From Lunularia cruciata (Eukaryota > Streptophyta > Marchantiopsida > Lunulariales > Lunulariaceae), in NCBI GenBank assembly GCA_948567375.1, contig OX419756.1, positions 65,982,333 to 66,046,332 on the forward strand: a DNA stretch of 64,000 bases, written 5' to 3'. Positions 1 through 36,004 of the stretch are shown in pieces. Under the pieces are notes generated by a model, which saw only the letters and a program-made list of their open reading frames with translations, was not told the origin of the DNA and ran no database searches. A program made the translations under genes and the position numbers. Within the stretch, counting starts at the first letter, position 1. Every line of letters begins with the position of its first letter.

Positions 1-2314
1 TCTTCTCCATATCTCGCAGCCAACTCTCGCTGCCAGAGTTGCTTCTTCTCCTCCATACTCTCCATCACCCGATCGAGCTCTTGATCCTTCGATGCTACTC
101 TCGCCATAGCATGGATGAGCTCTACTCTTGAATCAGCAAACTGCTGCTTCAAGATTTCAAATTCAGCTACTTGTCTCTCCCTTACGACGTCACTCTTCCT
201 CGCAAGATCCTCTCAATAGCTCAATTCTCTCCTTAGGTCTTTGATTACCTGACTTCTCTCCACTGCTTCCACTTGCAGTACTTCTCTCTCCTTCTCACCT
301 CGGGTTATACTCTTCTTCAACTCCAAGTTTTCTTCTTCTAATCTCGATACCACCTGCAATACAGTCTTTACCTCTGGACAAGTCGACTGCATCTCCTTCT
401 TCTTCTTCTCCAACTTCACCAACAGCGGGCATACTACCATCTGCAGGTAATCTACTCCATTACTGATACCTTGTCCTCTCTCGGAGTAGTCTCTCTTCTT
501 TCTTCGTGTTCTCCCGATTCTCGCCTTCTTCTTTGAAGCCTTCGTATCGGAATTGATGCTTCACTGCCCGAGCTTCCTTCTACTTCTTCCTTCACTCTAC
601 TTGGTCCTGCTTCCCCCTTCGCCTTACGTCTTGAGCGAATTCCTCGCTGTACTGCGATCTTCTTCTCCTCAAGCACCGGTACTTCATCTTCCAGCGCCGC
701 ATTGTCTTCAGCTTTTACCTCGGCTTGAATTTCTTCTTCGTATTCTTCAGGCGTTGGTGCCGAGGTCATTTCTCCACCAACTTCACTATCACTGCTTGTA
801 TCTCCACTCTGCAGTGTTAGCTTAGGTTCCTCCTCACGTTCCGAGTCCTCCATCTTGAGCTCGGCTTCGCCTTTTGAGTCTTCATCTTCCGACTCAATCA
901 CTACCATTCCTCGCCTCGGGTTATTTTTCTGCATCTTCCAAGGTTTCTTGTTTTCTTCGGCGTCTGCTTGCCAAGTTCTCTTCTTTGTCGGGGTACTTTC
1001 AACGACCTCCACGTTCTTCCCTGTCTTCGCGTAGTAATCATCTGCACTCCGGATTTAGAGAATGTATTGCTGCTCCTCCGCGTCGACTTCTCTTCTCAAA
1101 TTAGGATGGAAATGAGACACCATTCGATTATGCTCAGCCACATTGAGCAGATTTAACCCGAGGTAAAAGTGGGCTGCAAATGGTACGATGTAGTGTGGAG
1201 GTGACTTATCTCGCAGATTCCACACCATCTGCCTCGTTCTTCCGTGAAAGCACCTTGCCCAATTTATCGGTTCTCCTGCAAATAACTTGTGAAAGAACAC
1301 CGCTTGGTGTTTCATCACATAGGTAGTTCTCTCCGGCTTCAGGAGGGCCATTAGTGCACTCACAATTCCCCTCCTCACTGGGTCCTTATAACTCTCAACT
1401 TTATACCCATTCTTCGTCCTCTTTGACGCGAAGGCTTCTCTCACCTCCTGCGTTTCTTGAGCTATCTCTCCTTTCCCCAAGAACGTGGCCCCCTGCTCCG
1501 AGCCTGCCTCCTTCCCGAGTACGAGTCTCCAATCCGACTCTGTCCAGCGAGCCGGATTTCCTCTCTTCCCTTCTTCCTCAGGACCATCGAGACATTTACT
1601 CTCGATGATTTCTGTCATGAATCCTGGAAAACTTATGTTCCAATTCCATGCCAGAAAGGTGATCCAAAGTCGGCTCAAGACTTCAATCCTCGCTACTACA
1701 TCTAATCTCCGAATTGCATGATTTCTCACTGCAAATTTGGAGTTCTTCTTCCCTCCTCCCATCTTTTCTACTTTCTTTTGGTCTCTCGATTTCTCTCTCT
1801 CGACTTCTCCCTTATGCACTAACCTGAGGCCAACGCTATGTCCCTTTCCCGGATCACCTGCAAGACGACTCCTCAATGGTGAAGGAAAATTGCTCGACAT
1901 TTCATTGTTGCAGTTTCGATTTTTATAGAGTTGCACTTCTTCGTCTTCCGTTACTTCGAGTTTCTACCGAGAAATCACACCTCTTGCATGCACCCGTTAC
2001 TGTCGCCCCATCTTCACGTGTATGAGCCGCCAATTTTGAAACCACCCCTTCTTGAATTTCTTGCCCTGACGAAAGGTTGTTAGACTGTCTTTGCCTCGGG
2101 TTGAGCTCCCCCCCCGATCCGAAGACAATTTACTTTGTATCGTTTGCTGACACGGCATTTCAGAGTACTTCGCCTTATGATCCGAGGTCACTTTACTTTG
2201 GGTTTCACCCCGAAGACAGTTTTCTTCGTCTTCTTTGGCCAACCAGGCGCAATCCGACTTCTCTACACACTTCTTCTGCTTTATTTTGAAAAAAACAAAA
2301 ATGTGGGCACCACA
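1..2314 (-). repeat. 3' LTR of element A (partial, runs off window)
   Basis: On the minus strand this LTR starts with TGTGGTGCCC at 2314, directly after the polypurine tract. It is the same length, to the base, as the matching part of the 5' LTR (10148-12461). About 1.47 kb more should lie left of the window. It carries the same coding stretches as the 5' LTR: the conserved N-terminal domain at about 1055-1936 and the acidic and coiled-coil part at about 213-1012. Confidence 0.93.
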
Positions 2315-2327
2315 TACCCCCTCCCTC
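2315..2327 (-). other. polypurine tract of element A
   Basis: On the minus strand a purine run, GAGGGAGGGGGTA, abuts the TG that starts the 3' LTR. This is the expected plus-strand priming site. The same tract, slightly changed, precedes the 3' LTR of C (32164-32175) and of I (62573-62585). Confidence 0.85.
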
Positions 2328-3591
2328 AAATGTGAGCGTCCCCGCGAACATAGACCTCGGGTGTCTTAGAAACTTCCGAGTCTATGGTCCAATATCTCCG
2401 AACTCTCCACCCGTTTAAGCGAGTGGCAAAAGGATTACCTTCCAAATCGACGAGTTGCAGGGATCCATTTTCGTAAAGATGACGAACTCGATAGGGACCC
2501 ATCCATCGCAAATGCAACTTGCCTGGAAAAAATATTCGGCGATTATCATATAACAAAACCAAATCCCCTTCTCGTACAGTCACAGGCTTGATTCTTTGAT
2601 CGTGCCTGACTTTCCGCTGTGCTTGTACTTCTTTCGTGGTTTGCATTGCATCGTCTCTTTTCTCTTGTAACCACATCAGTTGTTGAATCCAAAGATCCTG
2701 ACTTTCCTCTTCCGACATTCGTTCTTCGCACAGGACTCGATAAGTCGGAACTTCAAATTCAACTGGCAGTATGGGGTGCAAGCCATATGTCAAGAAGTAT
2801 GGAGTTTGTTTGGTTGTAATCTTCTCTGTTGTCCAATAGGCCCATAACGCGGCTGGTAATTTTGTATCCCAATCATAGGCATAATTGACAGTCACCTTAT
2901 TCAAAATTTTGCAAAGTAACCCATTCGCTTTTTCTGTTAAGCCATTCGCTTTTGGGTTATAAGGAGTCGTCTTCCGATGTTTAATCTGAAAATACTTGGT
3001 TAACTCCTCCATTACAGAGTTCAAAAAATGTGTTCCTCGGTCACTGACCAATTCCAGAGGACACCCATATCGGGAGATGATGTTTCAAAAGAAAAATTCC
3101 GCCACAGTTTCTGCATCATCTCTGCGAGTTGCTTCCGCTTCAACCATCTTGGTAGCGTAATCAGTGCAAACCAAAATATATCGCTTTCTTGTGACTTGGG
3201 TTACTGGTTGAATGGGACCCACAAAATCAATACCCCATTTCTCAAAGGGGGCCAAAGGCAAAATTGGTTTCAAAGGCCATTGAGAAGTGGCCGTCGGCTT
3301 CCCCGTTCTCTGACACGCATCATAGCTTCGAATATGAGCATGTACATCTTTGTACATTGTAGGCCACCAATACCCTACCAAAAGAATTTTCTTTACTGTA
3401 TTCTTCAGAGCATAGTGTCCTCCCGATGCCTCGGAGTGTAAAGATTCAATTACTCCTCCTACTTCGTATGACTCCAAGCATCGCCGAAGTACTTCATCTT
3501 CGCCCATCTTAAATAAAAATGCTGTGTTTAAGCTGGAACGGCCCCATTTTCCGGAGAAAGACTGCCCGCTGTTCCGGATCCATCCCCTCAA
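2326..3591 (-). mobile_element. integrase region of element A
   Basis: The minus-strand translation shows the parts of a Gypsy integrase. There is an HHCC zinc-binding region (GHYALKNTVKK ... YDACQRTGK), then the catalytic core with FVGPIQPVT, VCTDYATKMVEAEA, a VSDRGTHFLN block and NPKANGLTEKANG. Last comes a C-terminal domain with PGKLHLRWMGPYRV and NGWRVRRYW. The C-terminal block resembles non-chromoviral plant Gypsy integrases, and no chromodomain follows. It inserts the cDNA copy into host DNA. This is a fossil copy. Confidence 0.9.
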
Positions 3592-5029
3592 GACAATGGA
3601 GAGTATTCAGATAATTATATTCATCTGCATACCTTGTACTTCGCATTGTTGATAAGTGATACAACTCTTTGTCAGGGAACCGATCGTCAATTTCCCACTC
3701 CTGGTCTTGAGTGTCTAACCTGGACAGGAAGTCCGCATTCGAATGCGAAGCTCCCTTCCTTACTTGTACAGTATACATGAACTCTTGTAATAACAAGATC
3801 CATCTTGCAATTCGTCCCGATAAATCTGCCTTCTTGACCAGATGTTGCAATGCATAATGGTCAACATAGAAGACAAACTCATACCCCAACAAATAATGCC
3901 GAAATTTCTTGCAGGCATACACCATTCCGAGTGCTTCTCTTTCCGTCGTTGAATAATGCTTTTTAGAAACTGAAAGTTGTCGGCTGGCGTAATACACCAG
4001 GTAGTCTTTCTTCTTCTCGTCCTTTTGACTTAAGACAACCCCGATTGCCATGGATGAAGTATCCACATACACATGAAAAGGGATGTCCCAATTTGGGGCC
4101 CTCATGACTGGTGCTTCAACCAGTTTCTTCTTCAACACCTGGAAGGCTTCTTCTTGATGTGCTTCCCACAGATAGTCTTCGGATTTCTTCAGAAGCTTTG
4201 TAAGTGGTGCAGCAAGCACTGCATAGTTTGACACGAAGCGTCTGTAATATCCGACATGTCCCAAGAAGGCTCTCAACTCCCGGATGTTCTTCGGGGATTC
4301 CAAAGCTGCGATTATTTTAACCTTCTCAACATCGACTTCAATACCTCGGCTTGACACCCGATGCCCCAGAAGAATTCCCTCCTTCATTGCGAAGAAGCAT
4401 TTCTCCGGGTGTAATGACAAGCTGGCAAAACGACACCTTTCAAACATTTGGCGAAGGTAATCTCTATGTACATCCCGTCGTCCAAACACACAAAAGTCAT
4501 CAATAAAAACTTCGACAAATTTGCGCAGGAAATCTTTAAAGATCAAATTCATCATCCGCTGGAAAGTAGCGGGAGCATTACACAACCCAAAGGGCATTTG
4601 ATTGTAAGCAAAAGTGCCCCAATCGGTCGTGAATGTAGTTTTATCCTTGTCTTCTTCCCGAATGGATACTTGATTGTACCCTGAAAATCCATCAAGAAAA
4701 CTATAACAAGGATGCCCAGCTACTTGGTCTAAGATTGTATCGGTAAAAGGCAAGGGATGATGATCTTTCCTTGTGACTGCGTTCAATTTTTGAAAGTCTT
4801 GGCACACTCGGATCTTCCCTGTTTTCTTCTTCGGGACAATGACAATGGGGGAGACCCATTCACTGCTTAAGACAGGGAAGATGATTCCGGCCCCTAAGTA
4901 CTTATCAATTTCATCTTTTACCCAGAGCGAGTACTTCGGGTTCAAGCGGTATTGTCGCTGCCAAACCGGAACTGCACCTTCAATCAAATCAATCCGGTGT
5001 TCTCCAAATTCTCGTGGAATACCCGGCAT
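3509..5029 (-). mobile_element. reverse transcriptase - RNase H region of element A
   Basis: The translation has the standard Gypsy RT blocks: SEWVSPIVIVPKKKTGKIRV, FLDGFSGYNQV, QMPFGLCNAPATFQR and the catalytic FIDDFCVFG. The RNase H part follows (FHVYVDTSSMAIG, YYASRQLS, TEREALGMVYACKKFRHYLL, VDHYALQHLV). It copies the element RNA into DNA and removes the RNA strand. The nearest relative in the window is the C copy at 29688-31013. B's RT (22323-24314) is clearly different. Confidence 0.93.
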
Positions 5030-5148
5030 TTGATCAATCGGCCACGCAAATACATCCTAGAATTCTATAAACAGGGCAGTGTATCTTGCCAACTCCTCCG
5101 AAGTAACTATCTTTGAGATTTTTAAAATTTCTCCTTCAGTGAGTAACA

Positions 5149-5344
5149 CCCCGGCAGCGGCGCCAAAAAATCATGTGACAACCCGGCAAATATCACTTTT
5201 GCAATAATCGGGTAAGTAAAGTTCGTTCCCCACAGAGATACGAGTCAGAAATGTCCAAATACGAAGCAAAGTAACAATTTCAGTTCTTCTTGAGTTCTTC
5301 TTTAGTCTCTCTGGTAGAAACCACACCCAGAAGAGAGTAACACC
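5149..5344 (-). repeat. primer site plus LTR-tip fragment lodged inside element A pol
   Basis: This piece repeats 8657-8850: the tRNA-Asp primer site, the short A-rich spacer and the first 169 bases of the LTR edge (TGTGACAACCCGGC onward). It lies between the protease and RT regions, far from the element's own ends. The ten bases GAGTAACACC occur at both edges (5141-5150 and 5335-5344). Ordinary retrotransposon insertion would leave whole LTRs and a 5-bp duplication, so strand transfer during reverse transcription, or a repair event using the short match, is the likelier origin. Confidence 0.85.
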
Positions 5345-6105: not shown

Positions 6106-8640
6106 TTACAATTGCTTAAATGTAACATTGGCATTTGTGGTGGCCAAGTCGGCTATAATATCATATTGGGGAACTCCTCCCAATTTGACCGTCTTCGTCT
6201 TCGGCTTTGAGTCCGAGGACTCTCCATGCTCCCTCTTGATGTCGGGACGCTTCAAAATGGTGACGGGCTTGCTGATGGCCTTAACCCAAGCTTCCTCGGG
6301 TTGGCCTACCTCGGCTTGAATCAGACCCTTTACTTCGGATCGGATGTCCGCCGGAAAAATTGGAGACTTCATCTTCGTCTCTTCTTCCAAACTTAGTTCC
6401 CGAGTCCTTAGTAATGCCTCCGTTAATTCTTTCTGCAAGGCTTTAGCTTTAGCTTTTGCAAGGATCTTTTCCTCCTTGGCCGAAAGAATTGCTTTTGGGC
6501 GTTGTCTCTTTGCCTTTCGGGAAGACGACGAGGTCGTACTCAGTTCTTCGGGATCACGCTTCTTCTTGGTGGAGCGTGTCTCAACTTTCAAAATTTCAAG
6601 GTCTGGCCATTCTCCTTCTGAGGCCGGACTCCCTTCGTGAGGTCTTTCTTCCTCAAGAGTTATACAATTCACATTCGTATCCCCCTTCGGCTGAAGTGCT
6701 GCACGCTCAGCGGGGGTCTGTACATATTTTACAAGAGGCTTTGGGTTCAGCGGGTGAGGGCATTGGTTGCCCGTATGCCCCGATCCTTTACAATTTCCAC
6801 ACAGGGGAACGTACCCAATTTGCCTTCTTGGCTCGAGACAATTTGGAGACCAATGTCCCATCGAGCCACAATTATAACAAGCGTCGGGCGCAACATTCTG
6901 AGGGCGATTTTGGTTGCTCATCGGTGGTCTTCGTGCAGGAGCATTGGGGTTATACTCCCTGGGTCCCAACCTCGGACCTTGATATGATGTGCTCGGTTGA
7001 GGCTGTACCTCTTGAGTTTGATACACCGCCTCTTTGTCATCGTCTTGGTTCCATCCCGGAACCCAATCAATTTGCTGCACCGGGAATGCATTACGAGTAT
7101 TGCATTTTGTGTTGGCGTGGCCGGATTTTCCACAGGCGGTGCACCACACATTAGATCGTCCAAATGCGGGGGCCTTTCTTCGGTCCTTAGCCCCAATCAT
7201 CTGGATCTTGAAATCTGAAAAATCCTTGATGAGGGCATCCAGCTTCGTATCCGCCTTATGTACAGTCTTGGCTGGTGACATCACTGGTTTCTTCGCTCCA
7301 CGTCTTCTGACTCGTCTTGGCTTTGATTCTTCTTCGGATTCCGAAGAAGAGCTTGAAGACGTAGAGGATTTGTCCGAAGAAGGGGAGGTACTACACGAAG
7401 CTCTCCTTCTGGGCTTCTTGCCCTTCTTCTCCCGATTTCTCCCGTTACCGGTAGAGTGAGAGTGTGCCGCTTCATAACGAGCGACATGTTTGAGTAATTT
7501 ATCGAGGGAAGTTACATTCCTCTCCTTGGCAAAGATTCGTATCTCTGGTGACAGGCCCCCGAGGAACCAGGTAATGGCTTGGGCATCGGAGTATCCCACC
7601 ACCCCCGATTGCTTGGGAACTCGGTTCAATAATGCCATGAACCGCTCAGAGTAGTCTCTCAACTTCTCCTTCTTGCCTCGTTCCAAATCGTTTAGTGCCG
7701 CGAAGACACTCATATCATAGTCAACTTCCCGGAATCGTTCCAGGAAGTTGTTTCTCAAGTTTGCCCAGTCCGATGGTACAAACCCCTTCTGAGTCACATG
7801 CGTGTACTAGCTCCGAGCTTTCTTGCAAAGCAGACTTGGAAAAATTCTTAGTCGATCCGCCGAGTCATGCTCCTTGTTAGCAAAGGAGATGACTTTGAAT
7901 TCTTCGATGAATTCATCGGGGTCTTTGTCTTGTTCCGTCCCCTTATACTTCTGATAGGCGTGTCGGGTGACAAGAAGCAAAGTCATCATTTGATGCACTG
8001 GGATCGGCTGAGGGAATGTAGAACTTGACGGAACGGAAGAATTGGCTGGAATTGACGCCGTGTTGTCAGCCCAGGGATTCAAATTCGTCAAATTCAACAC
8101 AGGGTCTTCTTCGACAATTTCTACTCTGAGAGGGTTGACTTCAACCCGAGTGGAAGATTCAGGATCAACACCTTCAATAAGTTCTTCCAAATTCCTTCAG
8201 GACAACCGAGGAATCGTTCGTAGAAGATGTTGACACTCGTCTTCAGTAAGTGTGCGTGCTGTCTTTTCTCAAACAAAGGTCTTCAAGGAAACAACTTCCT
8301 TTACAGCTCTAGGGGAAGTTGGGGTACTGGGCCGCAATGCATATGTTTGCCCACTCGATTCTTTCTTCTTCTTGGAAGAAGAGGGAGATGCAAAGTAGCC
8401 TTGCCAACCGCCTTCGCGTTTCTTGTGATCAAGTTCTCGCAGGGCTTCTTGCACTTCGTGAAGGAGTTGAAACTCCAACGCCTCTTGCTCAGTTTCGTCA
8501 ACGATGGATGAGACATTCAGACGTTCGTCTTCTTCACGCTGAAGTGCTCATCTTCGGGCTCTCTCTTCCCGTTGTTCTTTCAATCCAGACATTCATATTG
8601 CCTTGATACCCAGTGTTCAATTTGGCTTCGTATTCTTCCA
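6106..8640 (-). mobile_element. gag region of element A
   Basis: This is the capsid and nucleocapsid region. The retrotransposon Gag core is visible in blocks such as LRDYSERFMALLNRVP and AITWFLGGLSPEIRIFAKER. A basic, serine-rich stretch follows, then three CCHC zinc knuckles: CTACGKSGHANTKC, CYNCGSMGHWSPNC and CGNCKGSGHTGNQC. A long charged Lys/Glu-rich tail ends near NANVTFKQL, just before the protease. Upstream the region extends toward the primer site as a charged helical stretch (about 8269-8516). Confidence 0.88.
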
Positions 8641-8656
8641 CTTCCAAGATTTGTAT

Positions 8657-8673
8657 CCCCGGCAGCGGCGCCA
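8657..8673 (-). other. primer-binding site of element A (tRNA-Asp)
   Basis: On the minus strand the bases TGGCGCCGCTGCCGGGG lie eight bases inside the 5' LTR. From memory of plant tRNA-Asp, whose 3' end is CCCCGGCAACGGCGCCA, this pairs with one mismatch. Plant Athila/Tat-type elements often use this tRNA. Confidence 0.85.
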
Positions 8674-9474
8674 AAAAATCATGTGACAACCCGGCAAATA
8701 TCACTTTTGCGGTAATCGGGTAAGTAAAGTTCGTTCCCGTAGAGATACGAGTCAGAAATGTCCAAATATGAAGCAAAGTAACAATTTCAGTTCTTCTTGA
8801 GTTTTTCTTTAGTCTCTCAAGTAGAAACCACACCCAAAAGAGAGTAACAAGCATTGACTTGCAGTCTTGTCACAAATTAACACTCCAAAATCACAACTCC
8901 ATCAATTATTTCCAAACAAACTTGATTTGTGATGATTCAGGCTCTCCCGAAAACGGCACTTCACTGCAAAACGACTTCGCCTCAGAATTGTGTTCCACCC
9001 TTCCACTGAAGGCACAACTTCCTCGATCAAAATTGCTTCACATCAACTTCGCACTACACTCACAAATGCAGAATACTATCAACACTACAATTCCTCTCAG
9101 ATCTGTCAAGGCATTGCATCGATGCACTTCACTCAGGATCAAACACACAGAATGAAGATCAAGGCTATGGAATCCAACATCCAACAAGCACTCTGATTGC
9201 ACTTCGAATTTCTCCAAACATTCACAAACACAATCGCAAAGTTGATACTCGGAATCAAGCTCAAGCAACGAGCACTGCTTCACAGCACTTCGCTTTATCT
9301 ATTCTCAGAAATAATGAGCACTGAACAACAATTTCATGCGAATGCCACTCTTAAATAGTGAAGCAATCGACAATTCTAACAACTATACCGTTTCTACATC
9401 AACTGTTCTAACTTGTAGATCCGAAATGACAATGCACCTCTTCATATCTGCCCCTTCAAATCTCAAATCGGTTA

Positions 9475-10299
9475 CTAATCCAATCCGATGTCTACTTCTT
9501 CCTCGGCTTTCAAACCCGAACCCAAAGTAATCTTACTTCCTACTATTCTATCCTCGGGTTTCACAACTCTTACATCTTCTACCAGATCCAGCAATTCTCT
9601 TTCCTGATTTGAAATTGCACTAGCGGGTAATCTATCTAATTCTTCATCTTTCGACCCACTCTTCTCTACTGTCGCTGAGGCCAACTCCGAAGACATTTGG
9701 ATCCCGATGTCATCTACGTCGGGTTTTGCTTTAACATCCTGCCAAAGCTTTTCTAACTCTATTCTTACTAAGTCTTATCTAATCGTGATATTGTCTTCTA
9801 CTTCTTAGATCTTCCTATCTACACGAGTTCTCAATTTAATCAACAAGGCATTCAGATCTGTATCTTTCGCTTGCCTTCGCCTCGTCTCCTGCACTAACAG
9901 CTTCAACTCGTGCAGACGCGCTTCTTCAATTCAAACGCTGGTCTCTATACTTAGCATCGCGTTTACCCTGAGGACTATCTCCTGCAATGGCTCTAATCTT
10001 GTCTTCCTTTCTCGTTCCCGATCTGCAAGCCATTCCTCTCTGTACATCGCCAACTCTTCTTCAAATTTGGCCTTCACCGCGTCCTTCTCTTTCTCCTTCT
10101 ATGCAACCTTTTCTTCCTGATTACAAAGTAAGTCTCGTAATCTCTCTTCTTCTCCATATCTCACAGCCAACTCTTGCTGCCAGAGTTGCTTCTTCTCCTC
10201 CATACTCTCCATCACCCGATCGAGCTCTTGATCCTTCGATGCTACTCTCGCCATAGCATGGATGAGCTCTACTCTTGAATCAGCAAACTGCTGCTTCAA
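9475..10299 (-). mobile_element. LTR-borne coiled-coil coding tail (element A 5' LTR)
   Basis: Charged helical coding continues toward the LTR end, with MARVASKDQELDRVMESMEE, KKQLWQQELAVRYGEEERL and, nearest the end, an acidic segment (RELLDLVEDVRVVKPEDR, KAEEEVDIG). The same order of motifs occurs in D (25499-26767) and in C's LTR (34383-35200). This copy is broken. Confidence 0.65.
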
Positions 10300-10359
10300 G
10301 ATTTCAAATTCAGCTACTTGTCTCTCCCTTACGACGTCACTCTTCCTCGCAAGATCCTC

Positions 10360-11160
10360 TCAATAGCTCAATTCTGTCCTCAAGTCTTTGATTACCTGAC
10401 TTCTCTCCACTGCTTCCACTTGCAGTACTTCTCTCTCCTTCTCACCTCGGGTAATACTCTTCTTCAACTCCGAGTTTTTTTCTTCTAATCTCGATACCAC
10501 CTGCAATACAGTCTTTACCTCTGGACAAGTCGACTGCATCTCCTTCTTCTTCTTCTCCAACTTCACCAACAGCGGGCATACTACCATCTGCAGGTAATCT
10601 ACTCCATTACTGATACCTTCGTCCTCTCTCGGAGTAGTCTCTCTTCTTTCTTCGTGTTCTCCCGATTCTCGCCTTCTTCTTTGAAGCCTTTGTATCGGAA
10701 TTGATGCTTCACTGCCCGAGCTTCCTTCTACTTCTTCCTTCACTCTACTTGGTCCTGCTTCCCCCTTTGCCTTACGTCTCGAGCAAATTCCTCGCTGTAC
10801 TGCGATCTTCTTCTCCTCAAGCACCGGTACTTTGTCTTCCAGAGCCGCATTGTCTTCGGCTTTTACCTCGGCTTGAATTTCTTCTTCGTATTCTTCAGGC
10901 GTTGGTGCCGAGGTCATTTCTCCACCGACTTCACTATCACTGCTTGTATCTCCACTCTGCAGTGTCAGCTTAGGTTCCTCCTCACGTTCCGAGTCCTCCG
11001 TCTTGAGCTCGGCTTCGCCTTCTGAGTCTTCATCTTCCGACTCAATCACCACCATTCCTCGCCTCGGGTTATTTTTCTGCATCTTCCGAGGTTTCTTGTT
11101 TTCTTTGGCATCTGCTTGCCGAGTTCTCTTCTTCGTCGGGGTACTTTCAACGACCTCCAC
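10360..11160 (-). mobile_element. LTR-borne ORF, acidic and coiled-coil part (element A 5' LTR)
   Basis: About 266 codons in the sense direction. The order is a basic, NLS-like start (TPTKKRTRQADAKENKKPRK), acidic serine-rich tracts (VVIESEDEDSEGEAEL, EDSEREEEPKL), a basic patch (RRLQRRRRES in sister copies) and a heptad-rich helix (YLQMVVCPLLVKLEKKKKEM, RLEEKNSELKKSITRGEKE). More coiled-coil coding follows to about 9475. No membrane segment is visible, so it does not look like an Env protein. Nuclear localisation and self-association are inferences from composition. Confidence 0.75.
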
Positions 11161-11202
11161 GTTCTTCCCTGTCTTTGCGTAGTAATCATCTGCGCTCCGG
11201 AT

Positions 11203-12102
11203 TTAGAGAATGTATTGCTGCTCCTCCGTGTCGACTTCTCTTCTCAAATCAGGATGGAAATGAGACACCATTCGATTACGCTCAGCCACATTGAGCAGAT
11301 TTAACCCGAGGTAAAAGTGGGCTGCAAATGGTACGATGTAGTGTGGAGGCGACTTATCTCGCAGATTCCACACCATCTGCCTCGTTCTTCCGTGAAAGCA
11401 CCTTGCCCAATTTATCGGTTCTCCTGCAAATAACTTGTGAAAGAACACCGCTTGGTGTTTCATCACATAGGTAGTTCTCTCCGGCTTCAGGAGGGCCATT
11501 AGTGCACTCACAATTCCCCTCCTCACTGGGTCCTTATAACTCTCAACTTTATACCCATTCTTCGTCCTCTTTGACGCGAAGACTTCTCTCACCTCCTGCG
11601 TTTCTTGAGCTATCTCTCCTTTCCCCAAGAACGTGGCCCCCTGCTCCGAGCCTGCCTCCTTCCCGAGTACGAGTCTCCAATCCGACTCTGTCCAGCGAGC
11701 CGGATTTCCTCTCTTCCCTTCTTCCTCGGGACCATCAAGACATTTACTCTCAATGATTTCTGTCATGAATCCTGGAAAACTTATGTTCCAATTCCATGCC
11801 AGAAAGGTGATCCGAAGTCGGCTCAAGACTTCGATCCTCGCTACTACATCTAATCTCCAAATTGCATGATTTCTCACTGCAAATTCGGAGTTCTTCTTCC
11901 CTCCTCCCATCTCTTTTGCTTTCTTTTGGTCTCTCGATTTCTCTCTCTCGACTTCTCCCTTACGCACTAACCCGAGGCCAACGCTATGTCCCTTTCCCCG
12001 ATCACCTGCAAGACGACTCCTCAACGGCGAAGGAAAATTGCTCGACATTTCATCGTTGCAGTTTCGATTTTTATAGAGTTGCACTTCTTCGTCTTCCGTC
12101 AC
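11203..12102 (-). mobile_element. LTR-borne ORF, N-terminal conserved domain (element A 5' LTR)
   Basis: This sense-strand coding stretch of about 300 codons lies wholly inside the LTR. It opens with a basic segment (MSSNFPSPLRSRLAGD, GGGKKNSEFAVRNH). A conserved globular-looking domain follows, with VARIEVLSRLRITFLAWNWN, TESDWRLVLGKEA, NGYKVESYKDPVRRG, HQAVFFHKLFAGEPINWARC and PPHYIVPFAAHFYLGLNLL. I do not recognise it with certainty. Its layout faintly recalls the plant 'putative transposon protein' modules found beside Gypsy elements, which is only a guess. The same domain occurs in the LTRs of C, D, G, H, E and I. Confidence 0.8.
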
Positions 12103-12461
12103 TTTGAGTTTCTACCAATAAATCACACCTCCTGCATGCACCCGTTATTGTCGCCCCACCTTCACGCGTATGAGCCGCCAGTTTTGAAACCGCCCCTTCT
12201 TGAATTTCTCGCCCCGACGAAAGGTTGTTAGACTGTCTTTGCCTCGGGTTGAGCTCCCCCCCGATCCGAAGACAATTTACTTCGTATCGTTTGCTGACAC
12301 GGCATTTCAGAGTACTTCGCCTTATGACCCGAGGTCACTTTACTTCGGGTTTCACCCCAAAGACAGTTTTCTTTGTCTTCTTCGGCCAACCAGGCGCAAT
12401 CCGACTTCTCTATACACTTCTTCTGCTTTATTTTGAAAAAAACAAAAATGTGGGCACCACA

Positions 12462-13081: not shown

Positions 13082-14157
13082 CGTTCTCCCGTGAAAACAC
13101 CTTGCCCAATTCATTGGTTCTCCTGCAAACAATTTGTGAAAGAACACCGCTTGGTGTTACATCACATATGTTGTTCTCTCCGGCTTCAAGATTGCCATCA
13201 AAGCACTCACAATTCCTCTCTTGACAGGATCTTTGTAACTTTCTACCTTGTACCCATTCTTTGTTCTCTTTGACGAGAAGGCATCTCTCATCTCCTGCGT
13301 TTCTTGGGCTTTCTCTCCTTTCCCCAAGAACGTGGCTCCCTGCTCCAAACCAGCCTCCTTCTCGAGTACGAGTCTCCAATCTGACTCTGTCCAGCGAGCC
13401 GGATTTCCTCTCTTCCCTTCTTCCTCGGGACCATCAAGACACTTACTATCAATAATTTCTGTCATGAATCCTGGAAAACTTACGTTCCAGTTCCATGCTT
13501 GAAAAGTGATACAAAGTCGGCTCAAGACTTCGATCCTTGCTACTACATCTAATCTCCTAATTGCATGATTTCTCACTGCAAATTCGGAGTTCTTCTTCCC
13601 TCTTCCCATCTCTTCTGCTTTCTTACTGTCTTGCAATTTCTCTCTCGTGACTTCTCCCTTGCGCACTAACACGAGTCCGACTCTATTTCCCTTTCCCCAA
13701 TCACCTGCAAGACGACTCCTCAACGGCAAAGGAAAATTGCTCGACATTTGTCATTGCAGTTTTGATTTTTATAGAGTTGCACTTCTTCGTCTTCCATCAC
13801 TTTGAGTTTCTACTGAGAAATCACACCTCCGGCATGCACCTGTCACTGTCAATCAACCTTCACACGTATGAGCCACCAGTTTTGAAACGGCTCCTTCTTG
13901 AATTTCTTGCCCCGACAAAAGGTTGTTAGACTGTCTCTTTGCCTTGGGTTGAGCTCCCCCCGATCCGAAGACAATCTTCTTTGTATTGTGTGCTAACAGG
14001 GCATTTCCGAGTACTTCGCTTTATGACTCGAAATCACTTTACTTCGGGTTTCATCCCAAAGACAATTTTCTTCGCCTTCTTGGCCATACAAGCACAATCC
14101 AACTTCTCTATACACTTCTCCTTTATTTTGAAAGAAACAAAAAATGTGGGCACCACA
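13082..14157 (-). repeat. LTR fragment G of the A family
   Basis: This matches 11392-12461 of A's 5' LTR and ends in GGGCACCACA at 14157. It carries the conserved N-terminal LTR ORF domain (13157-13747: TESDWRLVLEKEAG, NGYKVESYKDPVKRG). Only the right part is present; the rest should lie left of the window, beyond A and F. It abuts H at CCTGC (14158-14162), the expected target duplication. This copy is broken. Confidence 0.82.
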
Positions 14158-16013
14158 CCTGCAATACAATCTTTACCTCTGGACAAGTCGATTGCATCTC
14201 CTTCTTCTTCTGCTCCAACTTCACCAACAGTAGGCACACTACCTCTCGCAGGTACTCTACTCCCTCACATGCAACTTCTTCCTCCCGCGGAGTAGTTTCT
14301 CTTTTCTCCTCGTGTTCTCCTGATACTCGCCTTCTTCTCTAAAGTCTTCATATCGGGATTGATGCCTCACTACCCGAGCTGTCTTCTGCCTCTTCCTTCA
14401 CCCTACTTGGCCCCGCCTCACACTTCACCTTACGTCTCGAGCAAACTCTTTGCTGAATTGCAAACTTCTTCTCCTCGAGCACCGGTACTTCGTCTTCCAG
14501 CGTCGCATTGTCTTCGGCTTCTACTTTAGCTTGCACTTTTTCTTTGTATTCTTCAGCCACTGGCGCCGAGGTCATTTCTCCACCGTCTTCACTGTCACTG
14601 CTCGTATCTCCACTCTGCAATGTCAGCTCAAGTTCCTCCTCATGTTCCAAGTCCTCCGTCTTGAGCTCGGCCTTGCCTTCTAAGTCTTCATCTTCTGACT
14701 CAATTACTACCATTCCTCACCTTGGGTTGTTTTTCTGCATCTTCCAAGGTTTCTTGTTTTCTTTGGCTTCAACTTGCCGAGTTCTCTTCTTTGTCGGGGT
14801 ACTTACTACAACTTCCACGTTTTCCCTGTCTTTGCATAGTAGTCGTTTGTGCTCCGGATTTGGAGAATGTATTGTTGCTCCTCAACATTGACTTCCTTTC
14901 GCACATCCGGATGGAAGTACAACACCATCCGATTTCGCTCCGCCGAGGTCAGCAAATTGAACCCGAGGTAGAAGTGCGCTACAAACAACACAATGTAATG
15001 TGGAGGCGACTTATCCCACAGATTCCACACCATCTGCCTTGTTCTCCCGTGAAAACACCTCGCTCAATTAATTGGTTCTCCTGCAAACAATTTGTGAAAG
15101 AACACCGCTTGGTGTTTCATCACATATGTTGTTCTCTCCGGCTTCAAGATTGCCATCAAAGCACTCACAATACCTCTCTTGATAGGATCTTTGTAACTTT
15201 CTACCTTGTACCCATTCTTCGTTCTCTTCAACAAGAAGGCTTCTATCCAGCGAGCCGGATTTCCTCTCTTCCCTTCTTCCTTGGGATCATCAAGACACTT
15301 ACTCTTGATGATTTCTATCATGAATCCCGGAAAACTTACGTTCCAGTTCCATGCCAGAAAAGTGATCCGAAGTCCGCTCAAGACTTCAATCCTTGCTACT
15401 ACATCTAATCTCTGAATTGCATGATTTCTCACTGCGAATTCGGAGTTCTTCTTCCCTCCTCCCATCTCTTCTGCTTTCTTATTGTCTCTTGATTTCTCTC
15501 TTGTGACTTCTCCCTTGTGCACTAACATGATTCCAACTCTATTTCCATTTCCCCGATCACCTGCAAGATGACTCCTCAACGGTGAAGGAAAATTGCTCAA
15601 CATTTTGTCGTTGCAGTTTTGATTTTTATAGAGTTGCAATTCTTTGTCTTCCGTCACTTCGAGTTTCTACCAAGAAATCACACCTCCAGCATGCACTTGT
15701 CACTGTCAATCAACCTTCACGCGTATGAGCCACCTATTTTGAAATGGCACCTTCTTGAATTTCTTGCCCCGACAAAAGGTTGTTAGACGGTCTTTGCCTC
15801 GGGTTGAGCTCCCCTCGATCCAAAGACAATCTACTTTGTATTGTTTGCTGACAAGGCATTTCCAAGTACTTTGCCTTATGACCCAAAGTCACTTTACTTT
15901 GGGTTTCATCCTGAAGACAATTTTCTTCGCCTTCTTTGGCCATACAGGCGCAATCCGACTTCTCTATACACTTCTCCTTTATTGTGAAAAAAACAAAAAA
16001 TGTGGGCACCACA
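14158..16013 (-). repeat. LTR fragment H of the A family
   Basis: This matches about 10502-12461 of A's LTR and ends GGGCACCACA at 16013. It contains the acidic and coiled-coil coding part (14348-14713) and the conserved domain (14806-15657: FMIEIIKSKCLDDPKEEGKR, MVWNLWDKSPPHYIVLF). It differs visibly from G and from A, so it is an older insertion. The next bases, ACTCA (16014-16018), belong to E and should reappear at H's missing left end. This copy is broken. Confidence 0.82.
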
Positions 16014-18364
16014 ACTCATGTAGGCAAGCTTCCTCCAATCTCCCTTCAACCTCCGTGCTTAAGATCACTCTTAACTTTCTTGCAACCTCCAATATTGATT
16101 CCGATGCATATCCTCAAGAGCGCTCCACCTTCAACTCCTCACGATACATCTTCAACTCGTCTTTGTATTATGCGGTGAGCATCTTCTTCTCCTCTGCATA
16201 CTGCATGCTCTGCCCTTCCGCACTCTTGACGAGTTCTCATAATTGTTCTTCTTCCTCTTGCCTGGCTGCCAACTCTCTCTGCCATGCTTGATCGTTTGTT
16301 GCTGCACTTTTCTTTAAGCTGTCCAACTCCTGCTCCATTACAATGTTCATCGCCTTCAAATGAACATTCTCGATGCGCACATCACTCACTTTTTCCTTCA
16401 TCTTGTTGAGCCACATCGCTTGTTCCTTGAATTCTCCGGCTTGTCTTTGCAGCTCCTTTTCCTTTTCTGCACAGCTTCCTTGTAGCATGGTCAGAGTTTT
16501 CTTCATCAAGCCTTCCTCCCTCCGAAGTTCTTCCACTTCCTTGCTTCTTCGGACTTGTTGCTCCTGCAACTCCTTCACTTCACTCAACAGACACTTCACC
16601 ATCTGCAATTCGTTCATCCCCTTCCTGCAATCTTGGGGAATGACTCTCCGATGCTCCTTCAATAGCTCTAGCAATGGTGTGACCACCTTTGTCAAATAAG
16701 ATATCCCACCGGAGGTTTCTTCCTCTTCATCGCCATCTTCGTCTAGAGTCTTCTCCTCCGTCATTGGCTCCTTCATCCAAAGTCGTGATCTTCGTATCTT
16801 CATCATGTCAGCACTTTCTTCGTCTTGGCCTCTTGAACTCGGCCCCACAGGATTCTCTGCTTTCTCTTCTACTCTTGACTTGTTTACTACCCTTGTGTGA
16901 CAAGCCTCACTTACTGCTGCCAATTGTTGAACCTCTGGCTCCCCATTGCTATTGCTCCCCAACTCCTCACTTTTCAATGTGAGCTCCTCTTCTTCCAATT
17001 CCTCTTCTTGCAACTCAGTCTCTTCCCCAGACTCCGATCCCAATGATGCCTCTTTTATGATCTTTGCCGTCTTCAACCTCAGCCATTTGTCATTTGCTTG
17101 AAGATGCAGCATATACTGGCGCTCTTCCTCGTCTGCTTCCCGTCATAAATTGGGATGCATGTGAGACACCATACAATGACACTCTTCTTTGGTTAGGAAG
17201 TTCAGCCCGAAGTAGAAGTGGGCTATGAACGGTGCAAAATAATGCGGTGGCAAGCCTGTTTGCCAATTCACCACTATCTGCCTTGTTTGGTGGTGAAAGC
17301 ACTTTGCTCAATTCTCTAGAGCTCTTGCAAACATCTGATGGAAGAAGACAGCCTGCTGCATGTTCATGTAGGTGGTTCATTCTGGCTTGAACATGGCCAT
17401 CATCACCCCTACAATACTTCTTCGGATCGGATCCCGATAGGACTCCACCTTGTAGCCATTCGTGGTTCTCAAAGCAAAGAACAAATTGTGGATTTACGTC
17501 GTCTCCTCTGCAACATCATACTTCCAATAAAAGGTGATCCCTGTTGGTTCTCCTGCTTCTCTTCCCAATACTAACTTCCAATCTGACTCAGTCCATTGTG
17601 CCGGATTGCCTCTCTTCCCTTCCACCTTGGGACCCTCCTCACAATTACTGGCAGCAGTCTCTGCCATCACTCCTGAGAAACTGAAATTCTAGTTCCATGC
17701 TAAAAAGGTAATACAAAGTCTAATCAAGACCTCGATTCTAGCTACAACATCTACGCTTCGGATTGCAAAACCTCTCACCGCCAGTGCGTTGGCCACCTTA
17801 TTTGCCATGATCTATTCTCTTGTTCTATGATGTTGGAAGATGAGACCCTCTCTTGGATGAGACACTCTAACTCCCTTAGGGTTTTGGAAAATCTCACTCT
17901 CGATGGGCTTCCGGACACGCATTACTGCAGGATGACTACTCAAAGGGATTGGAAATTTACTCAAAGTATTCAACTTTTCCCTGCGCAGTTGCAATTTTAT
18001 ATTGCAGTCATTCTTCAATCAATTTCAGCTGCAAATTTCTCTCTTCTACATGCAACTCCCGATCACTGTCAAGACATGCTTCTGCTGCCCTCGACGTTTC
18101 TTGAAATGTACTTTCTTGCCACATACAAAGGTTGTTAAACGGTCTTTGTCTCTCTTGCATCTTCCAACCTAAAGACGGTGATCTTCAGATGTTTTCCGGC
18201 TTACTCCTCTTTTGAGTACCTCCATCACTGGATCCGATGTCATCTTCTTTGGATTTCCTCCGAAGTTACTTCTGTCCATTCTTTGTCCGCAATCTGACTT
18301 TTTGTGCTTACTTCATCTCTTAAACACTACTAACCATAGAAAAACAAAAAATGTGGGTACCACA
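16014..18364 (-). repeat. LTR fragment E, a diverged subfamily of the coding LTR
   Basis: It ends in GTGGGTACCACA at 18364, like the A-family LTR end, but most of its sequence is strongly diverged. The coding layout is the same. The conserved domain is recognisable on the minus strand at about 17090-17810 (TESDWKLVLGREA, NGYKVESYRDPIRR, QAVFFHQMF). A long acidic and coiled-coil ORF follows (16237-17112). E interrupts element C at ACCCC (18365-18369). This copy is broken. Confidence 0.78.
16237..17112 (-). mobile_element. LTR-borne coiled-coil ORF of subfamily E (291 codons)
   Basis: An open frame of 291 codons lies within LTR E. It starts with a short linker, then an acidic tract (SGEETELQEEELEEEELTL), a basic patch (MMKIRRSRLWMKE), then long heptads (SEVKELQEQQVRRSKEVEEL, EKEKELQRQAGEFKEQAMWL, ELDSLKKSAATND). 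The junction ISYLTKVVTPLLELLKE lines up with VDYLQMVVCPLLVKLEK of subfamily A. Low identity with the same order suggests the protein was kept under selection while the source lineages diverged. Confidence 0.7.
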
Positions 18365-19129: not shown

Positions 19130-19133
19130 TTTT

Positions 19134-19151
19134 TGGTTCCGTTGCTGGGAC
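19134..19151 (+). other. primer-binding site of element B (tRNA-Glu)
   Basis: TGGTTCCGTTGCTGGGAC follows the 5' LTR by a few bases. From memory, plant tRNA-Glu ends GTCCCGGCAACGGAACCA, which pairs with one mismatch. It differs from the tRNA-Asp site of the A family, which fits the difference in pol sequence. Confidence 0.75.
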
Positions 19152-22097: not shown

Positions 22098-22130
22098 ATG
22101 GGGGTGGTGGATGCCAAGCCAACACCATGA

Positions 22131-24543: not shown

Positions 24544-24579
24544 AGAGACCTTCACTTTGAGGACAAAGTGAAAACTTAG

Positions 24580-24708: not shown

Positions 24709-27700
24709 TGTGACAACCCGGCAAATATCACTTTTGCGATAATCGGGTAAGTAAAGTTCATTCCCGCAGAGATACGAGTCAAGATTGGTCAAATACAAAG
24801 CAAAGTAACAATGTAGTTCTTCTTGATTGCGTCTTTAATCTCTCAGGTAGAAACCACACCCAGAAGAGAGTAACAAGCACTAATTTGCAGTCTTGTCACA
24901 AATTCACACTCCTTAATCACAACTCCATCAAATCTTTCCAAACAATCTTGATTGTGATGATTCAGGCTCTCTCAAAAACGGCACTTCACTACAAAACAAC
25001 TTTGCCTCAGAATTGTGTTCCACCCATCCACTAAAGGCACAACTTCCTTGATCGAAATTGCTTCACATCAACTTCGCACTGCACTCACAAATGCAAAATA
25101 CTACCAACACTACAATTCCTCTCAGATCTATCAAGGCATTGCTCCGATTGCACTTCACTCAGGATCAAACATACAAAATGAAGATCAAGGTTGTGGAATC
25201 CAACATCCAACAAGCACACTGACTTGCACTTCAAATTTCTCCAAACATTCACAAACACAATCACAAAGTTGATACTTGGAATCAAGCTCAAGTGACGAGC
25301 ACTGCCTCACAACACTTCGCTTTATCTATTCTCAGAAATAATGAGCACTGAACAACAATTTCTTGCGAATGCCACTCTTAAATAGTGAAGCAATTGACAG
25401 TTCTAACTATACCGTTTCTACAACAACTGTTCTAACCTGTAGATCCAAAATGACAATGCACCTCTTCATATCTGCCCCTTCAAATCTCAAATCGGTTACT
25501 ACTCCGATCCGATGTCTACTTCTTCTTCGGCTTTCAAACCCGAACCCGAAGTAATCTTACTTCCTATTACTCTGTCCTCGAGTTTCAGATCTTCTACTTC
25601 TTCTACCAAATCAAGCAATTCTCTTTCCTGATCTGAAATTCCACTAGTGGGTAATCTTTCTAACTCCTTATCTCCTGACCCACTCTTCTCTAATGTCTCT
25701 GATGGCAACTCCGAAGACATTTGCACTCCTATGTTATCTACTTTGGGTTTTGCTTTAATATCCCTCCGAAGTTTTTCTAGCTCTACTTTCACTAAGTCTA
25801 ATCTAATGGAAATGTTATCCTCTACCTCCAAAACCTTTCTATCTACACGAGCTCTTAATTTTATTAACAAGGCGTTCATCTCAGTGTCCTTTGCTTGTCT
25901 TCGCCTCATCTCCTACACCAACAACTTCAACTCGTGCAGTCTCGCTTCTTCAATTCGAATGCTGGCCTCTGTACTTAACATCGTGTTTACTCTGAGTACT
26001 ATCTCCTGCAATGGCTCCAATCTTGTCTTCCTTTCTCGTTCCCAATCTGCAAGCCATTCCTCTCTGTACATTGCCAATTCTTCCTTGAATTCGGCTTTCA
26101 CCGACTCCTTCTCCTTCTCTTTTTGGACAACCTTCTCTTCCCGATTATGAAGTAACTCTCGTAATCTCTCTTCTTCTCTATATCTCACAGCCAACTCTTG
26201 TTGCTAGAGTTGCTTCTTCTCCTCCATACTCTCCATCACTCTATCAAGCTCTTGATCCTTTGCTACTACCCTCGCCATAGCATGAATAAGCTCTACCCTT
26301 GAATCAACAAACTGTTGCTTCAAGATTTTGTATTCAGCTACATGTCTCTCTCTTGCGATATCACTCTTCCTCGCAAGATCCTCTCGATAGCTCACTTCCC
26401 TCTTCAGGTCTTCAATTACCAAACTTCTCTCTACTGCCTCCGCTCGCAGTACTTCTCTCTCCTCCTCACCTCGGGTTACACTCCTCTTCAACTCCGAGTT
26501 CTCTTCTTCTAATCTTGCTACCACCTGCAATACAGTCTTTACCTCGGGACAAGTCAACTGCATCTCCTTCTTCTTCTGCTCCAACTTCACCAACAGCGGG
26601 CACACTACTTCTTGCAGGTACTCCACTCCATCACTAGCAACTTCTTCCTCCCGCGGAGTGGTCTCTCTTTTCTCCTTGTGTTCTCTTGATACTCGCCTTC
26701 TTCTCAGGAGTCTTCGTATCGGGATTGGTACCTCACTGCCCAAGCTTTCTTCTACCTCTGCCTTCACTCGACTTGGTCCCGCCTCACACTTTGCCTTACG
26801 TCACGAGCGGATTCCTTGCTGCACTGCAATCTTCTTCTCCTCTGGCACCGGTACTTTGTCTTCCAGCGTTGTATTGTCTTTGGCTTCTACCTCGGCTTGC
26901 ACTTCTTCTTTGTATTCTTAAGCCACTAGCGCCGAGGTCATCTCTCCACCGTCCTCACTATCACTGCTTGTATCTCCGCTCTATAGTGTCCTCTTACTCA
27001 CTATGACTTCCACATTTTTCCCTATCTTCGCGTAGTAGTCATCCGTGCTCCGGATTTGGAGAATGTATTGCTGCTCCTCGACATCGACCTCCTTTTGCAC
27101 ATCAAGATGGAAGTGCGACACCATCCGATTCCGCTCCGCCAAGTTCATCAAATTGAGCCCGAGGTAGAAGTGCGCTGCAAACGGCACAATGTAATGTGGA
27201 GGCGACTTATCTCGCAGATTCCACACCATCTGCCTCGTTCTCCCGTGAAAACACCTCGCCCAATTAATTGGTTCTCCTGCAAACAATTTGTGAAAGAACA
27301 CTGCTTAGTGTTTCATCACATATGTTGTTCTCTTCGGCTTCAGGATTGCCATCAAAGCACTCACAATTCCTCTCTTGATAGGGTCTTTGTAACTTTCTAC
27401 CTTGTACCCATTCTTCGTTCTCTTCGACAAGAAGGCATCTCTCACCTCCTGAGTTTCTTGGGCTATCTCTCCTTTTCCCAAGAACGTGGCTCCCTACTCC
27501 GAGCCCGCCTCCTTCCCGAGTACGAGTCTCCAATCCAACTCTGTCCAGCAAGCCGGATTTCCTCTCTTCCCTTCCTCCTCGGGTCCATCAAGACACTTAC
27601 TCTCAATGATCTCTGTCATGAATCCTGGAAAACTTACGTTCCAGTTCCATGCCAGAAAGGTGATCCAAAGTCGGCTCAAGACTTTGATCCTTGCTACTAC

Positions 27701-28311
27701 ATCTAATCTCCAAATCACATGACTTCTCACTGTGAATTTGTTCTTCTTCCCTCCTCCCATCTCTTCTGCTTTCTCACTTTCTCTCAATTTCACTCTCGTG
27801 ACTTCTTCCTTACGCACTAACACGAGCCCAACTCTATTTCCCTTCCCCTAGTCACCTGCAAGACAACTCCTGAACGGCAAAGGAAAATTGCTCGACATTT
27901 TGTCGTTGCAGTTTCTATTTTAATAGAGTTGTGCTTCTTTGTCTTCCGTCACTTTGAGTTTCTACCATGAAATCACACCTCCGGCATGCACCTGTCACTG
28001 TCAATCAACCTTCGCGCGTATGAGCCGCCAGTTTTGAAATGGCCCCTTCTTGAATTTCTTGCCCCAACGAAAGGTTGTTAGACTGTCTTTGCCTCGGGTT
28101 GAGCTCCCCCCAATCCAAAGACAATTTACTTCGTATTGTATGCTGACAGGATATTTCTGAGTACTTCACCTTATGACCCAAAGTCACTTTACTTTGGATT
28201 TCAACCCGAAGACTCTTTTCTTTGCCTTCTTCGGCCATACAGGCGCAATCCGACTTCTCTATACACTTCTTCTCCTTTATTCTGAAAAAAACAAAAAATG
28301 TAGGCACCACA
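24709..28311 (-). repeat. solo LTR D of the A family, inserted in B's 3' LTR
   Basis: A complete 3603-bp LTR, TGTGACAACC to GGCACCACA on the plus strand, stands alone between the two halves of B's 3' LTR. The five bases TTAGC flank it on both sides, a clean target duplication. A solo LTR arises when the two LTRs of a full element recombine. It keeps the family's coding layout on the minus strand: the conserved domain at about 26981-27823, and acidic and coiled-coil coding at 26204-26767 and 25499-26194. This copy is broken. Because B is young, D must be younger. Confidence 0.93.
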
Positions 28312-35100: not shown

Positions 35101-36004
35101 TAGAAGATGTAAGAGTTATGAAACCCAAGGATAGAATATTAGGAAGTAAAGTTACTTTGGGATTGGGTTTGAAAGCCAAGGAAGAAGTAAACATCGGATT
35201 GGATTAGTAACCGATTTGAGATTTGAATAGGCAGATATGAAGAGGTGCATTGTCATTTTGGATTTGTAGGTTTGTAGAGTCATAAGGAAGAGGTACATTA
35301 GGAAGATAATTGTCGATTGCTTCACTACTTAAGAGTGGCATTCGTAGTAAGATGTTGTTCAGTGCTCATAATTCTGAGAATAGATAAAGCAAAGTGTTGT
35401 GAAGCAGTGCTCGTCGCTTGAGCTTGATTCTGAGTATCAACTCTGTGTTTGTGTTTGTGAGTGTTGGGAAAAATTAAAAGTGCAAGTCAGTGTGCTTGTT
35501 GGATGTTGGATTCCGCAGCCTTGATCTTCATTTTGTGTGTTTGATCCTGAGTGAAGTGCAATCGGAGCAATGCCTTGACAGATCTGAGAGGAATTGTAGT
35601 GTTGGTAGTATTCTGCATTTGTGAGTACAATGCAAAGTTGATGTGAAGCAATATTGATCAAGGAAGTTGTGCCTTCAGTGGAGGGGTGGAACACAATTCT
35701 GAGGCAAAGTAGTTTTACAGTGAAGTGTTGTTTTTGGGAGAGCCTTGATCATCACAATCAAGATTGTTTGGAAAGATTTGAAGGTGTTGTGATTAAGAAG
35801 TGTTACTTCGTGACAAGATTGTGAATCAGTGCTTGTTACTCTCTTTTGGGTGTGGTTTCTACCTGAGAGATTAAAGATGCAACCAAGAAGAATTGAACTT
35901 ATTACTATTTGACTTCGTATTTGGACATTTCTGATTCGTATCTCTGCGGGAACGAACTTTACTTACCCGATTACCGCAAAAGTGATATTTGTCGGGTTGT
36001 CACA
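32176..36004 (+). repeat. 3' LTR of element C, 3829 bp, protein-coding
   Basis: It starts TGTGGTATCC after the polypurine tract and ends GGGTTGTCACA. It contains the family's coding layout on the plus strand: TATA-like TATAAAAAT (32607-32615), the conserved domain (32589-33480), the acidic and coiled-coil part (33636-34361) and the coil tail (34383-35200). A 44-bp unit is tandemly doubled at 32341-32428. The right flank begins AACAC, the expected target duplication. This copy is broken. Confidence 0.92.
33636..34361 (+). mobile_element. LTR-borne acidic and coiled-coil ORF in C's 3' LTR
   Basis: A 241-codon open stretch has the same order as in A: VVIASSEEDSEGKAK, EREEEPELTLQSGDTNSDSD, a basic patch IRRLQRRRQVSREEE, then VENLQEVVCPLLAKLEHKKR and RLEEENSELKKNIIRGEEE. 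Compared with A, many differences fall where the amino acid is unchanged or similar. This copy is part of a fossil LTR. Confidence 0.7.

Follow-up and report, generated by a model that had tools for sequence, protein, structure and literature searches.

Plant long terminal repeat (LTR) retrotransposons are viewed as a gag-pol region between control repeats, and the extra genes described in them lie in the internal region. What, then, occupies the 3.6-3.8-kb LTRs of a retrotransposon family in the liverwort Lunularia cruciata? We analyzed a stretch of 64,000 nucleotides (contig OX419756.1 of assembly GCA_948567375.1, forward-strand positions 65,982,333 to 66,046,332; hereafter the window, numbered from its first letter), in which positions 8682-12461 form one complete 3780-bp LTR on the minus strand, with TG...CA ends, of an element that we call A. 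An initial annotation had proposed that the LTRs of this family carry sense-strand coding, and this holds: the open reading frame (ORF) inside the LTR is a real, selected protein-coding gene, extending from codon 47 to about codon 800 of a frame that runs on to codon 857. As an overall reading we favor, as rather probable, a Ty3/gypsy family without a detected chromodomain whose LTRs each hold this gene within R-U5, the product being an accessory protein encoded by the element.

The gene lies inside the LTR, the ends of which are fixed by a primer binding site (PBS), a polypurine tract (PPT), the TG/CA termini and the insertion of a solo LTR with a preserved empty site. Read from 12461 to 8682, the LTR begins TGTGGTGCC (opening letters TGTGGTGCCCACATT) and finishes GTTGTCACA, and 8 nt separate its end from the 18-nt PBS at 8673-8656, which we take to be complementary to tRNA-Asp. 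The 3' LTR of A opens at 2314, preceded by a purine tract finishing GAGGGAGGGGGTA, and the two LTRs show 68 differences over 2313 aligned sites, 63 of them transitions and 5 transversions. As initially described, a full element carries the gene twice: in A, the 5' LTR copy stands before gag and the 3' LTR copy, cut by the window edge, after pol. The internal region encodes, in order, gag, protease (a weak match, E 0.007, below the Pfam cut-off), reverse transcriptase (RT), RNase H and integrase. Pfam gave no match to a chromodomain, the mark of a chromovirus, in the open stretches 2316-3084 and 3085-3606, nor to a second (archaeal-type) RNase H in those open stretches of A that were scanned, and Rfam and tRNA scans returned nothing. 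With its LTR pair, PBS, PPT and this order of domains, element A belongs to the Ty3/gypsy LTR retrotransposons, in a family for which no chromodomain was detected. Among the best 120 of 5151 matches to its RT, the top match overall was at 75%; the best ones with organism names were from Riccia sorocarpa (70, 68, and 72% for its best three), Marchantia polymorpha (78% and 70%, over 57% and 63% of the query) and Calypogeia fissa (54%), which points to a liverwort host.

A pattern search, with LTR-start patterns composed after copies had been seen, found that the family has eight LTR starts in the window, namely those of the 5' and 3' LTRs of A and of the copies C1, C2, D, H, I, and J. All eight copies carry the ORF, whole or in part, and all 14 tblastn matches of the H-copy protein to the window (E up to 1e-3) fall inside them. 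The solo LTR D, flanked by a target-site duplication, interrupts the 3' LTR of another gypsy element, E, and the uninterrupted site is kept in the 5' LTR of E (18438-19128). The LTRs of element E are 691 bp long and lack the gene (no tblastn match at E up to 1e-3); over 477 aligned residues, E and A share 48% identity in RT. Family members with short LTRs devoid of the gene, which according to the initial annotation would have spoken against it, did not appear in the window; C1, C2, and I are broken fragments and yet hold part of it.

An open frame alone proves little here, because the copies contain inner stops. In A, the frame from the ATG at 12048 to the stop at 9475 comprises 857 codons with 6 inner stops; D and H have 8 each and I has 9, the partial copies A3', C1, and C2 have 1, 1, and 4, and in J the gene is split over several frames. 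Long open stretches were initially noted in A, C, D, and H; the N-terminal domain is stop-free in A, but no copy is intact. Strong evidence comes instead from the codon positions at which aligned copies differ, which we counted at positions 1, 2, and 3 for each LTR segment. Between A and H these differences number 31, 31, and 20 in the first 413 nt and 12, 11, and 9 in codons 1-46, versus 25, 16, and 89 in the domain (codons 47-281; p 1.3e-16), 35, 50, and 86 in codons 282-470 and 59, 47, and 118 in codons 471-800 (p 4e-9); downstream of the ORF they are 37, 30, and 27. The domain gives the same signal between A and D (20, 10, and 56; p 1.4e-9) and between A and J, which are about half diverged (79, 62, and 120; p 3.6e-5), the latter pair also in codons 471-800 (p 8.5e-5). 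In all three comparisons, the third-position excess is restricted to codons 47-800, with none in the flanking LTR or in codons 1-46. Over the entire aligned stretches, six of seven pairs were significant at p 1.2e-5 or less (A/H, A/D, D/H, A/C2, A/C1, and A/I). The seventh, the two LTRs of A itself, records change after insertion and gave 22, 11, and 24 (p 0.08).

Ratios of nonsynonymous to synonymous change (dN/dS, NG86) were 0.20 for A/D, 0.16 for A/H, and 0.17 for D/H, and 0.12 to 0.38 across the pairs yielding a value; we rank them second to the phase test because the transition bias (63 versus 5) between the two LTRs of A raises dS when, as in this protein, two-fold codons are frequent. 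A gene start at about codon 47, at ATG 11910, would be in line with subfamily I, which has an ATG within one codon of the equivalent position and a stop two codons earlier. The initial placement of the gene is therefore retained for the coding and revised for its start. As constraint is not clearly seen between the two LTRs of A, selection probably acts during element replication and not after insertion, and would serve the element, as opposed to a host that has domesticated the gene.

The predicted protein combines the conserved N-terminal domain with an acidic linker and a charged C-terminal part. The domain is 84% identical in amino acids between A and H, compared with 86.5% for the RTs of this pair; the domain and RT are thus conserved about equally. 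Net charge reaches -15 over residues 351-400 of A, and a heptad pattern is significant at about residues 477-560 in both A and H, in a self-devised test with overlapping windows and no correction. The domain and acidic block of the initial annotation are therefore borne out, and its coiled coil is narrowed to about residues 477-560. It had also reported no membrane segment, and we likewise saw no transmembrane segment, the best 19-residue hydropathy being 1.28 in A, H, and D and 1.78 in I, in a stretch holding charged residues. No homologue was found in a protein collection at E 0.01 or at E 0.1 (each time among about 8000 scored candidates sharing most words) or in the PDB at E 1. The A protein had no Pfam match at E up to 10; of five further queries (D, H, I, the domain of A, and J), three had none and two had single unrelated matches at E 0.91 and 0.088. 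Two peptide patterns scanned across viral contigs picked out 97 stretches, none of which was confirmed, and an AlphaFold2 model of the domain built with seven window copies had a mean pLDDT of 41.7 and was unusable. Tentatively, and with considerable doubt, we suggest that the protein may belong to a family so far undescribed and that each LTR may be an autonomous gene, with a promoter, a trans-acting regulator and a 3' region. Solo LTRs, the formation of which normally ends an element, would on this view remain a source of the regulator, and its dose would follow the number of LTRs, as opposed to that of full elements.

Silent sites of the gene are more diverged than those of the accompanying pol. 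In the A/H comparison (9475-11910 versus 32772-35207 for the gene; 3512-5056 versus 29616-30980 for pol), four-fold sites differ in 81 of 172 cases within codons 47-800 and in 31 of 139 within RT (Fisher p 5.8e-6); for transversions at third positions, the counts are 99/750 in the LTR gene and 17/453 in RT (p 1.6e-8). The two integrase stretches each differ at 23% of four-fold sites (13/56 and 9/39) and the protease stretch at 6/38, so that the silent sites of the LTR gene are about twice as different as those of pol. Between A and D and between D and H, divergence at ORF third positions is likewise about double that of the first 413 nt. The gene is therefore older, or turns over more quickly, than the pol that accompanies it. 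As one explanation, lineages may have exchanged the gene through template switching; a different tree for the gene was not clearly shown by transversion distances.

Regarding expression, a candidate promoter (P1) is well conserved ahead of the gene. The box TATAAAA is exact in six of the eight copies (A5', A3', C1, C2, H, and I) and reads TATTAAAA in D and ATATAAGG in J, where it lies at LTR position 384. In A it stands 27 nt ahead of ATG 12048 and 165 nt ahead of ATG 11910, and no other ATG occurs from 12045 to ATG 11910. Transcription starting about 30 nt past the box, near 12045, would leave a U3 of about 0.4 kb and would skip ATG 12048, in keeping with the finding that codons 1-46 show no constraint. 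The gene would then lie within R-U5 as the first cistron of the genomic RNA, and the 3' LTR and solo LTRs would constitute additional promoter-plus-gene units; it is the conserved TATA box 165 nt ahead of the ATG that makes each LTR look like such a unit. More tentatively, the product could be a self-associating accessory factor with an acidic middle that serves the element in trans and acts, most probably inside the nucleus, on its transcription, its RNA or its integration complex. We also considered splicing of the gene out of the RNA and rejected it: a CAG/GTGA site at about 12005 is present in A5', A3', D, C1, and C2, but is not kept in H or J. A conserved RNA structure in the LTR beyond the ORF found no support among four sequences: of 168 predicted pairs, 10 showed double changes, and the covariation term was -1.69.

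Several observations weigh against the reading of a selected accessory gene in R-U5. No copy in the window is intact, each having stops or being partial. Significance for the linker is confined to A/H (A/D p 0.054, A/J p 0.32), and codons 801-857 lack a third-position excess (A/D p 0.83, A/J p 0.9; 13, 2, and 7 in A/H), leaving the C-terminal tail unsupported as selected protein. The NG86 value of the two LTRs of A, 0.36 (0.22-0.57), does not look neutral. A and H share the sites of two stops, at codon 282 (TAA in A, TAG in H) and codon 650 (TAG in both). As no relatives were found, the role of the protein is guessed from composition. H has an ATG in the stretch ahead of its equivalent of ATG 11910, and the promoter and start assignments are predictions from sequence. 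Finally, behind a first cistron of 811 codons, gag would be hard to translate unless the RNA were spliced or had an internal entry site, or a second promoter were used.

This last difficulty would disappear if the gene were in U3, as is sag of mouse mammary tumour virus (MMTV), an arrangement that we regard as possible but clearly less probable. The upstream TATA box would then give a short mRNA for this protein only and the genomic RNA would arise from a second promoter (P2; TATTTAAG, 9357-9350), making R-U5 the conserved last ~0.65 kb and gag 5'-proximal. The LTR beyond the ORF indeed changes slowly, as R-U5 should: its identity is 92% for A/D, 88% for A/H, and 70% for A/J, the pair for which the first 413 nt are only about 52-56% identical. 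MMTV sag is described as located in U3 with its own promoter of this kind (PMC9412291). Against this, the second TATA-like box is weak and altered in H (TACTTAAG) and J (TTGTTTAAA), whereas the first is well kept, and for Retrosat2, whose LTRs exceed 3.2 kb, the published description places a TATA box just ahead of a 2-kb R beginning at 244 (PMC3485330).

The nature of the protein admits other readings than the accessory protein favored here. Its N-terminal domain could be a far-diverged plant mobile domain or member of a "putative plant transposon protein" family, relocated into the LTR from beside gag-pol, which we consider conceivable but doubtful. The run TYVMKHQAVFFHKLFAGEPINWARCF seems to resemble these families. 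A plant mobile domain is reported in 57% of Ogre elements (Neumann 2019), but hmmscan against Pfam at E up to 10 matched neither PF10536 (plant mobile domain) nor PF04195 (Transposase_28) with the protein of A or the five further queries; HMMER filters discard most matches above about 0.1, such that a very distant relation could escape. It is unlikely, in our view, that the A/H lineage makes the N-terminal domain only, with the remainder produced by read-through or absent. The stop at codon 282 (11203-11205 in A; the H counterpart lies within 32634-35204) does fall directly past the conserved domain in A, A3', and H (TAA, TAA, and TAG). The codon is, however, glutamine (CAA) in D and C2 and histidine (CAT) in I, codon 650 is CAA in D, and the A/H third-position excess is strong throughout codons 282-800. 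As this excess is found on both sides of the stops, the region was translated during divergence, and we read the shared stops as parallel decay of glutamine codons, the alternative being a stop inherited in the A/H lineage. We think it highly improbable that the protein is Env-like or of the movement type: an extra ORF in sense with gag-pol and with a 3' copy after pol fits such a protein, but no transmembrane segment was seen and no Env family matched in Pfam. That every window copy has stops or is partial would suit a chance or relic frame in an LTR that is long for other reasons. This we regard as next to excluded, since the codon-phase signal extends over diverged subfamilies and stays restricted to the ORF, and refutes such a frame unless the alignment frame is wrong. 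Least credible of all is a misplacement of the LTR boundaries, with the gene actually in internal DNA, the case in which the initial annotation said it would fail; the PBS, PPT, and TG/CA ends stand against it, and solo LTR D, with its target-site duplication and empty site, refutes it.

Features of the family in the window, with positions, strand and the evidence or remarks for each.
Feature	Positions	Strand	Evidence or remarks
5' LTR of element A, complete, 3780 bp	8682..12461	-	TG..CA; PBS next to it; matches 3' LTR
TATA box TATAAAA, candidate promoter P1	12069..12075	-	LTR position 387
LTR-borne gene, 811 codons + stop	9475..11910	-	Per-segment phase test, translation; copy in A has inner stops
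Conserved N-terminal domain, codons 47-281, ~235 aa	11206..11910	-	Stop-free in A
Linker with acidic block, codons 282-470	10639..11205	-	Charge profile; phase test significant in A/H only
C-terminal charged part, codons 471-800	9649..10638	-	Heptad pattern at about 477-560; heptad and phase tests
Non-coding 3' part of LTR	8682..9474	-	Slower-changing than first 413 nt
TATTTAAG, weak candidate second promoter P2	9350..9357	-	Changed in H and J
Primer binding site TGGCGCCGCTGCCGGGGA	8656..8673	-	Directly after 5' LTR
gag ORF with zinc knuckle	6106..7806	-	Pfam
Reverse transcriptase + RNase H	3509..5056	-	Pfam
Integrase, two open stretches	2326..3606	-	Pfam; no chromodomain match
Polypurine tract ahead of 3' LTR	2315..2330	-	
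3' LTR of A, cut by window edge	1..2314	-	Gene repeated: 485-1762 in one frame, 3-467 in another
LTR fragment C1 with start of gene	13082..14157	-	
LTR fragment C2 with part of gene	14158..16013	-	
LTR fragment I, diverged subfamily	16014..18364	-	Domain 58% identical (aa) to A
Solo LTR D with gene	24709..28311	-	Target-site duplication TTAGC at 24704-24708 and 28312-28316
3' LTR of element H with gene	32176..36004	+	After pol 29356-32175
LTR J, most diverged subfamily, broken gene copy	58815..62572	-	

The surroundings of these copies are nested. Element E, on the plus strand at 18438-28890 with a 5-bp duplication (CGATC), sits within the gag-pol of element H, and LTR I begins at 18364, adjoining a 73-bp piece of H gag-pol. 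At the J locus (58815-63446, minus strand), a PPT and a stretch resembling the end of pol (62548-62993) lie ahead of the LTR, and 62996-63446 resembles the start region of the J LTR at 78.6%; the locus may be what is left of an element after loss of most of its internal part. Within the pol of A, between protease and RT, an insert at 5141-5338 consists of the final ~168 nt of the LTR together with the PBS, with GTGTTACTC at both junctions, and H is without it (29354/29356). The insert looks like a template-switch accident in plus-strand synthesis that ended at the PBS. Elsewhere in the window, an uninterrupted minus-strand frame of 1304 codons (44127-48041) has leucine-rich repeats and sub-cut-off matches to Roc and COR-A, which suggests a Roco-type protein. 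It is flanked by inverted copies (40194-41548 and 48611-49950) that are 76% identical over 1360 nt, the former overlapped by an RT-like frame at 41294-42340.

Extra proteins that are encoded by the element and conserved among members of a family are described for Ogre, Athila, Grande (GENE23), Retand (ORF4), and PvRetro13 (ORF2), some of them nuclear and one with an SMC domain; in that account, they are in the internal region and none is placed in an LTR (PMC7264820). The rice elements Retrosat2, RIRE3, and RIRE8 likewise combine long LTRs (about 3 kb or more) with an additional ORF ahead of gag-pol; the function of this ORF0 is given as unknown. By its description, however, ORF0 of Retrosat2 lies upstream of ORF1 with the LTR treated as a separate query, unlike the ORF inside the LTR here (PMC3485330). 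Retrozymes, as they are described, resemble the present family in having LTRs with functional cargo beyond control signals, but that cargo is RNA, a hammerhead ribozyme, and not a protein gene. A survey of plant elements notes extra ORFs, LTRs of up to about 5 kb and non-Met primers in non-chromoviruses (PMC6317226), and two liverwort genome papers give Ty3/gypsy content in passages that mention no gene in an LTR (PMC12885004 and PMC9985172). Among open-licence PMC papers listed for a few phrases on an ORF in an LTR, titles and abstract openings pointed to MMTV and showed no plant case.

MMTV sag/naf shares with the gene described here a sense protein gene inside the LTR, hence at both ends of the element, with an LTR promoter upstream (PMC9412291). 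It belongs to a betaretrovirus of another host, as opposed to a plant Ty3/gypsy element, and comparison with Sag, made only through Pfam and PDB, gave no match in either. Thus, the likeness drawn in the initial annotation stands as an analogy of position alone, the gene lying wholly inside the LTR, in sense, with two TATA candidates. If our reading is true, a gene selected over diverged subfamilies would be a clear LTR-borne case beside MMTV sag and would explain the length of these LTRs. Solo LTRs, usually deemed dead, could then still hold a gene.

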